A stretch of 64,000 bases of DNA, taken from Halobacterium rubrum (GTDB lineage Archaea > Halobacteriota > Halobacteria > Halobacteriales > Halobacteriaceae). The notes below the pieces were generated by a model. That model did no database searches. It worked only from the letters and a program-made list of their open reading frames with translations, and was not told where the DNA came from. The stretch is taken from positions 806,001 to 870,000 of the forward strand of contig NZ_JAJQQZ010000001.1 of NCBI RefSeq assembly GCF_021729015.1. The letters are read 5' to 3'. Below, one piece after another: positions 34,266 to 51,592 of the stretch (positions are counted from its first letter, which is position 1; each line of letters begins with the position of its first letter). The translations under genes were made by a program, and so were the position numbers.

Positions 34266-36926
34266 ATGACGAACGGCTCAGGCGACTCCATCGCCGTGCT
34301 CCTCGCCGAGGACGACGACGCCCTCGCGGACCTCACCGCGACGTACCTCCAGCGGGAGTCCGACGCGTTCTCGGTGACGACCCGCGGCGACGCCGAGTCC
34401 GCCCTCGAGTACCTCGCGACGGAGGGGCCCGTCGACTGCATCGTCTCCGACCACGACATGCCGGGGATGGACGGCCTCGAGTTCCTCGAAGCCGTCCGGG
34501 AGGACCACCCCGACCTGCCGTTCGTCCTGTTCACCGGGAAGGGCAACGAGGAGATCGCCAGCGAAGCCATCTCGGCGGGCGTCACCGACTACCTCCAGAA
34601 AGACACCGGCACCGACCAGTACGCCGTGCTCGCCAACCGTGTGCACAACGCCGTCGAGCGCCAGCGCTCGCAGACCGCGCTCCGCGAGGAGAAACACCTC
34701 CTCGAGCAGGTGCTGGCCACGACCCCGGGGTCGGTGGTCTTCGACACGGACGGCCGGGTGGCGTCAGCGACCGACCGCGCGGCGGCGACGCTCGGGCTCA
34801 CCGACGCCGAGTTCCCCGTCGACCCGGACTGGACGCTCGCCGACCTCGACGGCGACCCGCTGTCCGAGGGCGACCACCCGGCCCGCCGCGTCGCCAGAAC
34901 CGGCGAGCCGGTTCACGGCGAACGCCTCGCCGTCGTCTTCCCGGACGGCTGGGAGAAGAACCTCGTGATGCACTGCGCGCCCATCTTCGACAGCGACGGC
35001 GGTGTTCGGAAGACGCCGCAGGAGTCTTCCGCAGCCCAGCAAAACGCGGAGCGTTTTGAGGACGTCGACCGCGTCGTCGCCTCGTTCACGGACATCACCG
35101 ACCGGGTGCGTCGCGAGCGCGAACTCAAGCGCGTCCAGACCATCGTGCAGGCGGTCGGCGACTCCGTCTACACGCTCGACGAGGACGGCGTGTTCACGTT
35201 CGTCAACGACGCGTTCGTCGAGCTCAGCGGCCGGAACCGCGAGGACCTGCTCGGCAGCCACGTCTCCGAACTGCTCACGCCCGACGACCTCGCTGCCGGC
35301 GACCAGGCCATTGTGGACCTCATCGAGGACGACGACGACACGGCAGTCGTCGAGATGAGCGGGGACCACTGGGCCGACGGCGTCGAGCACCTCGACGTCC
35401 ACATCGCGTTGCTGCCCGGCGACGGCGGCTACGAGGGGACCGCGGGCGTCGTCCGGGACGTCACAGAACGCCGGCGGCGCGAACGCCGCCTGCGGGAGAG
35501 CGAGGAGAAGTACGCCACCGTCGTCGAGGAGGCCAGCGACGGCGTGTTCGTCGCACAGGACGGCGTCCTGAAGTTCGCGAACCCGCAGGGCGCCGACATC
35601 CTGAACGCCGACGCGGAGACCGTCGAGGGGACGCCTGTCGGCGACGTCATCGCGCCGGAGTATCAGGACAAAGTGCTCAGCCGACTCCAGCGGCGGCTGG
35701 AGGGCGACGACCCCGAGCGACGCTACGAGTTCGAGGCGGTGACCGTCGACGGCGACCGCGTCCCCATCGAGTTCACGGCCTCCACCATCACCTACGGCAG
35801 CGACCCCGCCGTGCTCGCCATCTGCCGGGACATCTCCGACCGCCGCGAGGAGGAACGCCAGCGCCGCCGCGCCGAGACCATCGTCGAGACCGCGCCCGAC
35901 GCCGTCTTCATCGTCGACGAGGACGCCGGCTACGTCGACGGCAACCGACGCGCCGCCGACCTCGTCGGGCTGTCCCGCGAGGAACTCGCCGAGCACAGCG
36001 TCCCCGACCTCGTCGACGCCGGCGTCTTCGACCCCGAGGTCGTCCCCCGGTACCGGGAGACCATCGCCGCCCTGCTGTCGTCGGACAACGACACCGAGAA
36101 GGGAAAATTCGAGTTCCGCGTCCACCCCGCCGGCACCGACGATACTCGGGTGGTCGAGTGCCACCTCGCGCTCCGGCCGCACGGCGACGAGTTCCGCGGC
36201 ACCATCGGCGTCCTCCGCGACGTCACCGACCGCAACCGCCGCCGCCGCGAGCTCGAAGCCCAGAACGAGCGCCTCGACGAGTTCGCGAGCGTCGTCAGCC
36301 ACGACCTCCGCAGTCCGCTGAACGTCGCGACGGGGTGGCTCGAACAGTACCGGGAGACCGGCGACGAGGACGCCCTCGACACGGTCGCGGACTCCCTGGA
36401 CCGCGTCGACGAGATTCTGGACGAACTGCTGACGCTGGCCCGCGACGGCACCGACGACCGCGAGACCGAGCCGGTGTCGCTGCAGGTCGCCGCCATCTCG
36501 GCGTGGGACGCCGTCGACACCGGTGACGCGCACATCGGCATCGACGCCGAGAACTGCGACGTCGAGGCGGTCTCCGGCCGGCTCCAGGAGCTCCTCGAGA
36601 ACCTCTTCCGGAACGCCGTCGAGCACGCCGCCACGCCCGAACAGCCCGCGCAGCTCGAGGGGTCGTCCTTCCGGGACTCGACCTCGCTGACCGTCCGCGT
36701 CGGTGAACTCGAGGGCGACCGGGAGGGGTTCTACGTGGCCGACGACGGCCCCGGGATTCCCGACGAGAAGCGCGAGGAGGTCTTCGAGATGGGGTTCACG
36801 ACCAGCGACGACGGCACCGGGTTCGGGCTCGCCATCGTCGACAGCGTGGCCGAGAACCACGGCTGGCGGGTCTCCGTCACGGACGACGAGGAAGACGGCG
36901 GCGCGCGCTTCGAGTTCGATACCTGA
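34266..36926 (+). CDS. Receiver/multi-PAS hybrid histidine kinase
   Basis: An 886-aa soluble protein. The receiver domain is at ~8-125, with phospho-acceptor Asp62 in IVSDHDMPGMDG. Four PAS-like segments follow up to ~665, then HisKA with the phosphorylated His679 (EFASVVSHDLRSPLN). The ATPase has an N box LLENLFRNAVEHA and G boxes DDGPGIPDEK and DGTGFGLAIVDS. No transmembrane segment is seen, so it senses inside the cell through PAS ligands. The first PAS carries a ~20-residue insert around residues 248-267 that encodes two hairpins. Its targets are unknown. Confidence 0.92.
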   Translation: MTNGSGDSIAVLLAEDDDALADLTATYLQRESDAFSVTTRGDAESALEYLATEGPVDCIVSDHDMPGMDGLEFLEAVREDHPDLPFVLFTGKGNEEIASEAISAGVTDYLQKDTGTDQYAVLANRVHNAVERQRSQTALREEKHLLEQVLATTPGSVVFDTDGRVASATDRAAATLGLTDAEFPVDPDWTLADLDGDPLSEGDHPARRVARTGEPVHGERLAVVFPDGWEKNLVMHCAPIFDSDGGVRKTPQESSAAQQNAERFEDVDRVVASFTDITDRVRRERELKRVQTIVQAVGDSVYTLDEDGVFTFVNDAFVELSGRNREDLLGSHVSELLTPDDLAAGDQAIVDLIEDDDDTAVVEMSGDHWADGVEHLDVHIALLPGDGGYEGTAGVVRDVTERRRRERRLRESEEKYATVVEEASDGVFVAQDGVLKFANPQGADILNADAETVEGTPVGDVIAPEYQDKVLSRLQRRLEGDDPERRYEFEAVTVDGDRVPIEFTASTITYGSDPAVLAICRDISDRREEERQRRRAETIVETAPDAVFIVDEDAGYVDGNRRAADLVGLSREELAEHSVPDLVDAGVFDPEVVPRYRETIAALLSSDNDTEKGKFEFRVHPAGTDDTRVVECHLALRPHGDEFRGTIGVLRDVTDRNRRRRELEAQNERLDEFASVVSHDLRSPLNVATGWLEQYRETGDEDALDTVADSLDRVDEILDELLTLARDGTDDRETEPVSLQVAAISAWDAVDTGDAHIGIDAENCDVEAVSGRLQELLENLFRNAVEHAATPEQPAQLEGSSFRDSTSLTVRVGELEGDREGFYVADDGPGIPDEKREEVFEMGFTTSDDGTGFGLAIVDSVAENHGWRVSVTDDEEDGGARFEFDT
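35007..35058. repeat. Two tandem perfect hairpins inside the kinase gene
   Basis: Hairpin 1 is CGGAAGAC (35007-35014) and GTCTTCCG (35024-35031) with a 9-nt loop. Hairpin 2 is CAAAACGC (35040-35047) and GCGTTTTG (35051-35058) with a 3-nt loop. Both are 8-bp perfect stems, in frame, and fall where PAS proteins of this type usually run straight from DGGV to DRVVASFTDIT. This looks like a small palindromic element inserted in frame. Confidence 0.65.
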
Positions 36927-50584: not shown

Positions 50585-51592
50585 TTATCCCTGGTTGGAT
50601 GCGGTGCTCACGTACCGCACCTCCGGATCGAGGCGCGGCGATTCGTTCGGCCGGACGGCCGGCCGGAAGCGCACGAGGCGCTGCTCCGGACCGGGCACCG
50701 AGCCCTTCACGAGCGTGTACGGACCGTCGACTTCGCCGTAGTTCGGGAAGCCGCCGTCCGGCGTCGGCTCGTCCCCATCGTTGATGTCGATGAGGCGCTT
50801 GTTCAGTTCGGTGCGCTGGTGGTAGCCGGTCTGGCCCTGCTGGGGAACCGTCGAGCGAACGCGGCTCGGGTTCCACGGGCCGAGGTTACCGATGCGGCGC
50901 CGCCAGCCCTGGCGGGCGTGCTTGCCCTTCCGCTTCTGGACGCCCCAGCGCTTGACGGGGCCCTGGGTGCCCTTGCCCTTCGTGACGCCCGCGACGTCCG
51001 TGAACTCGCCGGCGCGGAACACGTCACCGAAGTCGTGGGCGCCGCCGTCCTCGAGGAGGTCGGCAGCGAACTCGAGTCGGTCAGCGAGGCTGCCGCCGCC
51101 GACGCGAGTCTCCATGACGTCCGGTTTCTTCTTCGGGACGCCCGGGGCGTCGCCGGGTGCCGTGTGCGTGATGACACGGACGTCGGCGACGTCCTCGGTG
51201 TCGAGCGCCTCGTTCAATTCCTCAATGTCTCCGCCCTCGTCGGGAACGGAGAGCGTGCGGTCGAGCGCCTCGTGCGTGTCGTCCGCCCAGACTTCCGTCA
51301 GCGGCTTCTTGCCGTACGGCGTGTCTTCGTAGAGGCGGACGGCCGCCGCCCGCATGGGCGGCGTCTCGACGACCGTCACGGGGACGGTCGTCTCCATGCC
51401 CTCGGTCGGTGCGTTGGCCTTGTCGTCGACGAGGACGACGTGGGTCATGCCGGCCTTGTAGCCAGCGAAGCCCTGCAGGCCGACTTCACCGTCGTCGGCG
51501 GGCCACGAGTTGAAGCGCGGTACTTCGCTCTCCGCGCGCTTGCGGGGACTGAACCCCATCGAGCCTTTGCGTGGTCGGTTTGGCTGTGGCAT
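50585..51592 (-). CDS. rpl3: Ribosomal protein L3 (uL3)
   Basis: A 335-aa archaeal/eukaryotic-length L3. The N-terminus is MPQPNRPRKGSMGFSPRKRAESEVPRF and the central tunnel-facing part includes GVQKRKGKHARQGWRRRIGNLGPWNPSRVRSTVPQQGQTGYHQRTELNKRLIDIND. It is the first ribosomal protein of the cluster, 4 nt after the SPOUT gene. Confidence 0.97.
   Translation of the reverse strand: MPQPNRPRKGSMGFSPRKRAESEVPRFNSWPADDGEVGLQGFAGYKAGMTHVVLVDDKANAPTEGMETTVPVTVVETPPMRAAAVRLYEDTPYGKKPLTEVWADDTHEALDRTLSVPDEGGDIEELNEALDTEDVADVRVITHTAPGDAPGVPKKKPDVMETRVGGGSLADRLEFAADLLEDGGAHDFGDVFRAGEFTDVAGVTKGKGTQGPVKRWGVQKRKGKHARQGWRRRIGNLGPWNPSRVRSTVPQQGQTGYHQRTELNKRLIDINDGDEPTPDGGFPNYGEVDGPYTLVKGSVPGPEQRLVRFRPAVRPNESPRLDPEVRYVSTASNQG

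Follow-up and report, generated by a model that had tools for sequence, protein, structure and literature searches.

Locus and hairpins in the kinase gene

The window analysed here is a 64,000-nucleotide stretch of the Halobacterium rubrum genome (contig NZ_JAJQQZ010000001.1). It contains a histidine kinase gene in which two adjacent hairpins are found in frame (Table 1). The sequence-only reading had placed two in-frame hairpins, 8 nt apart, at 35007-35058 of such a gene, and both were confirmed there within an 886-aa ORF. Its assignment of the insert to the first PAS region holds insofar as that region is PAS-like, but the region is not recognised by Pfam, whose first PAS match begins at residue 289, past the insert. 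The arms of hairpin 1 in the kinase copy are CGGAAGAC/GTCTTCCG, the full stem of 11 bp with one mismatch being reached upon extension, and those of hairpin 2 are CAAAACGC/GCGTTTTG; both hairpins have triloops in the register of the family described below. Rfam covariance models gave no matches up to E = 1 in the region 34800-35300, which ruled out a known RNA family as the identity of the element. A further perfect hairpin pair (8 and 10 bp, 4 nt apart) is present at 51344-51392 of the window, and falls outside the element family by the finder used.

Table 1. Features of the kinase gene and of the element within it (window coordinates)
Feature	Position	Strand	Basis
Histidine kinase host gene: response regulator, PAS repeats, HisKA, HATPase; 886 aa	34266..36926	+	ORF and Pfam
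Target tetranucleotide GGTG, directly 5' of the insertion (family consensus G(A/G)CG)	35001..35004	+	
Complete palindromic element, inferred to be mobile; 60 nt, codon phase 1, encodes VRKTPQESSAAQQNAERFED	35005..35064	+	Empty sites; family boundaries
Hairpin 1: 11-bp stem with one mismatch, 3-nt loop	35007..35031	+	
Unpaired spacer CAGCCCAG (family consensus CAGCCCAT)	35032..35039	+	
Hairpin 2: perfect 8-bp stem, 3-nt loop	35040..35058	+	
Right end AGGACG, its final four bases similar to the target	35059..35064	+	

When the 60-nt unit was folded as single-stranded DNA, a z-score of -4.0 was obtained, and none of 200 shuffles folded as well. A shuffled window is expected to hold 0.08 pairs of such hairpins lying no more than 12 nt apart, and two pairs were seen in the window. 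The hairpin pair in the window alone is only weak evidence, and because of this the case for an element has to rest on comparison; its strength comes from the repeats found elsewhere and from the empty sites.

Empty and filled sites

Precisely 60 nt are missing from the kinase orthologues of four Halobacterium genomes, whose overall identity is 67-78%. The most similar of them has GGCGTCGACCGG where the window reads GGTG-TTC...GAGGACG-TCGACCGC, and the empty kinase site in orthologue L131 is GGCG-TCGACC. This exact absence delimits the unit as 35005-35064, places it 3' of a G(A/G)CG target and corrects the 52 nt proposed earlier. It encodes 20 residues, as had been estimated approximately, and the orthologues pass from D-G directly to VDRVVASFTDIT, the uninterrupted run that had been predicted for PAS proteins of this type.

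A second copy in the same genome lies on contig C2 (177017-177092, minus strand) in a DUF84 NTPase gene, where it is in frame and is read in the same frame as the kinase copy; all DUF84 orthologues aligned from other genomes are without the element. These two are the strong copies of the source genome, and many more were found in genomes G005, G008 and G010. In G008 an IS605 tnpB is present once empty and twice with a 60-nt copy, with flanks about 90-93% identical. Intact tnpB reads GGCG-TCAAC, and the filled gene reads GGCG-TTC...GACG-TCAAC. The left flank is either GGCG or GACG, and because the right end stays GACG whatever the left flank reads, the target is not duplicated. The comparison shows that the element went in directly 3' of G(A/G)CG, into sequence that had been intact and with no duplication of the target; it does not demonstrate current activity. 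The criteria for a MITE (terminal inverted repeats plus target-site duplication) are not met, as the ends are not mutual inverted repeats. Those for a PATE-type element (a short target, subterminal palindromes and no target duplication) are met.

Extent of the family

The genome-wide search that the sequence-only reading had proposed yielded the second copy described above and repeats throughout the haloarchaea. A covariance model built from 16 copies had matches in every one of the 13 Halobacterium genomes at E<=0.1; at E<=1e-3 it matched 265 of 293 Halobacteriales genomes, representing 79 of 87 genera. In a set of 148 genomes of the phylum, only six from outside Halobacteriales reached E<=1e-3, with weaker matches (best 1.2e-9). 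Judging from these scores, the weak matches may be due to chance, and the strong ones appear to be haloarchaeal. A 32-base full pattern, GACGTTC-N-GCAGCCCATCAGAA-N-TTCTGAGGACG, was also searched for in 257 Gb of sequence from 84,980 species genomes (GTDB). It occurred in 46 stretches, confined to haloarchaea (Haloferax, Haloarcula, Natrialba, Halococcus, Natronomonas, Halorubrum and other genera) and one soda-lake MAG contig. This contig (L106, PUKR01000267.1) is labelled Syntrophomonadaceae, carries a haloarchaeal-type tnpB with the element, and is probably misbinned. Copies are carried by haloarchaeal plasmids, whereas none was found in the viral and phage sets IMG/VR and INPHARED, and a viral or phage vector was rejected on these grounds.

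The collection used below comprises 152 copies from Halobacterium and across Halobacteriales, located in intergenic DNA, transposase genes and cellular genes. Six intergenic copies from several genomes (L066, L070, L103, L109, L114, L254) share the context CAT(C/G)(A/G)ACG-element-TTTTTGCC, and another intergenic group has GACGACGCAAGCACCGCAG in common on the right side. Such context-sharing copies may be ancient, or may be parts of larger repeats.

Anatomy and covariation

The order of parts is fixed in the family as TTC-hairpin 1-CAGCCCAT-hairpin 2-AGGACG, with TTC forming the first three bases in 135 of the 152 copies and AGGACG the last six in 137. Copy lengths were 56 nt (51 copies), 60 nt (44), 58 nt (22), 54 nt (16), 57 nt (14) and 62 nt (4). 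Against one dominant spacer, GCAGCCCATCA, present in 108 of 152 copies, the stem arms are variable, with 44 different forms of stem 1 and 26 of stem 2. The unpaired parts are thus nearly invariant, and the stems differ yet keep their pairing by compensatory changes; double compensatory changes were seen in 7 of 19 pairs, a result matched by none of 500 shuffles. The simple reading of this covariation is selection on the folded form, although template-switch correction of quasi-palindromes is an untested alternative source. A sub-family has the spacer CGCA and stems starting AACGAG.

The idea first put forward from the window alone, of a miniature palindromic element that is mobile, is tolerated within genes and is comparable with those of Rickettsia, is supported by the empty sites, the repeats and the conserved hairpins. 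It would have been refuted had all orthologues carried the inserted residues without hairpin conservation, or had the unit been repeated in no genome; neither is the case, since the four kinase orthologues lack the residues and the unit recurs with its hairpins conserved.

Three further observations concern the form of such elements. One copy in a coding gene (L011/L031, G007:C1:1757494-1757623) is itself split in frame by a second palindromic element (VARESLCVSRDDERAKPSRT) between its hairpins. A different two-hairpin family recurs in Halobacterium (L043, L054, L055, L056), with the form CGAAAGACGGC..GCCGTCTTTCG-TGATGAC-GAAAGGCGC..GCGCCTTTCGAACCACTCC. At one site shared by two species (L216 and L218) the sole difference is the second loop, which reads ACA in one and TGT in the other, as if inverted.

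Reading frame in cellular and transposase genes

Of the copies flanked on either side by coding sequence in a single frame, all 28 had a length divisible by three, and 27 scored best in + phase 1. The exception, L064, scored best on the minus strand; read on the plus strand, it yields the family peptide within an open frame of 539 codons. In 21 cellular hosts named by Pfam, every copy was 54, 57 or 60 nt long, in one orientation and in + phase 1. The named hosts include SufB, a class I W/Y-type tRNA synthetase (TrpRS), fibrillarin, NAD kinase, a PLP enzyme (TrpB by its motifs), lipoate ligase, ParA/MinD (two sites), PEBP, a UvrD-like helicase and a P-type ATPase. Were the target the only determinant, 36% of insertions would fall in + phase 1, and the probability of finding all 21 there would be 0.364^21 = 6e-10. 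These hosts were chosen from + phase 1 frames; six-frame scans revealed no named cellular host in any other phase.

Independent sites were counted by hand, partly on the basis of codon composition, giving 31 cellular and 10 transposase sites. Multiples of three were found at 28 of the cellular sites versus 4 of the transposase sites (Fisher p 0.003), and + phase 1 at all 31 versus 4 (Fisher p 5e-5). Between genes and within transposase genes, most copies measure 56 or 58 nt, and other phases occur as well. We infer that the transposase genes act as a natural control: the element can insert in forms that are not compatible with coding, and selection does the rest. The encoded patch is hydrophilic and 18-20 residues long, with the pattern V-R/H-K-T-x-S-S-A-A-H-Q-N-x-x-S-E-D, and some of the proteins that gain it are essential. 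The open frame is retained in SufB, TrpRS and fibrillarin, and for fibrillarin and a P-type ATPase the deposited annotation continues across the element.

Proposed mechanism and origin

On the sequence evidence alone, the 60 nt very probably belong to a family of small mobile elements, non-autonomous and built of two hairpins, that extends over the haloarchaeal order and for which the following course of selection, translation and movement is proposed. Insertions would arise in all orientations and lengths, and selection would purge those that cause a frameshift, introduce a stop or add arginine-rich alternative frames. The inserted peptide would be translated and tolerated as a surface loop, an inference for which there are no expression or proteomic data. 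Movement would take place in trans, by an enzyme recognising the two hairpins as folded single strands and resembling the HUH/Y1 enzymes (IS200/IS605, RAYT); this is the least certain step, possible but on balance doubtful. Movement of a folded single strand by an HUH enzyme is established for IS200/IS605, and HUH-type movement is suggested here because of the subterminal hairpins, the position 3' of four bases that are similar to the right end, and the lack of duplication. A search for Y1_Tnp (PF01797) gave no match in the source genome. We also propose, tentatively and with a little less than even confidence, that a coding form (54, 57 or 60 nt, with an open hydrophilic frame) exists beside a non-coding form (56, 58 or 62 nt), that an undescribed structure-recognising enzyme is involved, and that the family repeatedly supplies essential archaeal proteins with insertions of 18-20 residues.

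It is possible that the element is instead a REP-like repeat of the CGTC-tagged superfamily, served by a RAYT-type enzyme and perhaps a head-to-head REP dimer. Its complementary strand starts CGTCC-hairpin, so that the AGGACG right end provides a CGTC tag adjoining an 8-9 bp stem, and its left end is CGTTC-hairpin. REPs characteristically have CGTC tags, stems of 8-9 bp (compare hairpin 2), dimers and copies inside genes, CGTC REPs are likewise without a known transposase, and two Rickettsia elements, RPE-4 and RPE-6 of R. conorii, belong to the CGTC REPs (PMC3733652). We nevertheless consider this origin unlikely, since REP loops have 4-5 bases and most loops of either hairpin here have three, the REPs reported so far come from bacteria, a 4-nt tag is weak evidence, and the source genome has no PF01797 protein.

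The short size, the two palindromes, the absence of target duplication and the 4-nt target also fit the description of a terminal-only PATE, in which the two ends of an IS200/IS605 transposon, left and right, are joined and are mobilised by the TnpA of that transposon; in Haloquadratum, terminal-only PATEs of 52 bp appear to be mobile (PMC3119063). The left ends of 20 IS605 (TnpA) loci in Halobacterium are unlike the element, and a stem of at least 6 bp lies directly upstream in 25 of 31 right-half matches (30 loci), found with a pattern that does not require hairpin 1; most of the remaining six look like degraded copies. No ends shared with an IS605-type transposon were found among the Halobacterium TnpA loci and the 30 right-end loci examined, which leaves an IS605 origin unsupported. 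The stems vary freely, but the fused ends of one transposon should share stems, and the missing PF01797 match in the source genome again counts against this origin, which we regard as quite improbable.

Frame-breaking copies and the tnpB hot spot

Copies of 56-59 nt were found inside otherwise intact tnpB, IS6-like and other transposase genes, the families besides TnpB being named from sequence motifs rather than by Pfam. Three cellular genes also hold frame-breaking copies, encoding a macro domain, a 4HBT thioesterase and a lipoprotein-like product. In some pairs of frame-broken tnpB genes dN/dS was near 0.1 on both sides of the element; for the thioesterase pair it was 0.3-0.4, and the downstream frame is shorter in one copy. 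In the tnpB tree, the four interrupted copies are interspersed with intact relatives that have the empty site, and three changes are needed to explain them. The better reading of this tree is repeated recent insertion at one tnpB hot spot in the RuvC motif, although one origin is not strictly excluded. Elements of 56 nt in L226, L284 and L291, from genomes of different families, lie at the identical RuvC-I nucleotide position of tnpB (GIDLG-VNS), and L287 is nearby.

The combination of 56-59 nt copies in otherwise intact tnpB, macro-domain and thioesterase genes with low tnpB dN/dS on both sides might suggest that the element is skipped in expression, by RNA excision or translational bypass, so that its frame is irrelevant. 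Skipping would make the preference of cellular genes for multiples of three and for one open phase pointless, however, and the scatter of broken tnpB copies among intact ones implies that the constraint is probably older than the insertions. With the higher dN/dS and shortened frame of the thioesterase pair, this makes skipping very unlikely; recent frame-breaking insertion is simpler according to the tree. Chance palindromes in a lineage-specific kinase insertion, which the expectation of about 0.08 adjacent hairpins per shuffled window might allow, are hardly conceivable given 152 copies, covariation and exact empty sites, and were ruled out by the empty/filled pairs.

Relation to known elements and significance

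Rickettsia palindromic elements (RPE) were reportedly described by Ogata et al. in 2000 and 2002, and their Wolbachia counterpart is said to be the WPE. Like these, the haloarchaeal elements are dispersed palindromes that lie in frame in many unrelated protein genes, are absent from orthologues and also occur between genes; the criteria of an RPE-type element (repetition in unrelated genes of one genome, in frame, with orthologues lacking it) are met. Unlike RPE, they have two independent hairpins, a fixed unpaired spacer, a length of 54-62 nt and a G(A/G)CG target, and they span an archaeal order and its plasmids. Homology to RPE families was not found, in that the full pattern occurs only in haloarchaea and one MAG contig among the 84,980 species genomes; the RPE sequences themselves were not aligned. 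With that reservation, the element works like the Rickettsia RPEs and is unrelated to them in sequence.

Among archaea, palindromic repeats with coding potential fused into genes are known from Methanocaldococcus jannaschii, according to papers citing Suyama et al. 2005 (PMC2229807, PMC2996958); M. jannaschii is a distant methanogen, unlike the haloarchaeal hosts. The PATEs and small mobile repeats (SMR) of Haloquadratum walsbyi resemble the element in being haloarchaeal, transposase-free and without target duplication, PATEs also in their short target and SMR-A in its insertions into IS605 elements (Dyall-Smith et al. 2011, PMC3119063). Unlike them, the element has no match to the IS605 ends examined and no terminal inverted repeats, and in-frame coding copies are a main habitat. 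With CGTC-tagged REPs it shares the complementary-strand CGTC tag, short hairpins, paired units, intragenic copies and the lack of a known transposase; it differs in its mostly three-base loops and in its stems and spacer, and such REPs have not been reported in archaea (PMC3733652).

No description of the haloarchaeal family was found in the open literature, most subscription papers and preprints being outside the search. The statement in the sequence-only reading that no archaeal family had been described stands to this extent for the haloarchaea, but not for archaea in general, in view of the coding palindromes reported in M. jannaschii.

Palindromic insertions that keep the reading frame are familiar chiefly from bacteria with an obligate intracellular life, and relaxed selection is a common explanation for them. 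Here the phenomenon extends over an entire order of free-living archaea; the target is defined, the empty sites are exact and genetically tractable hosts (Haloferax) are among the carriers, because of which mobility, the mobilising enzyme and the effect of the peptide become testable. For the annotation of haloarchaeal proteins there is also a warning, since patches of 18-20 residues in them may be mobile DNA.
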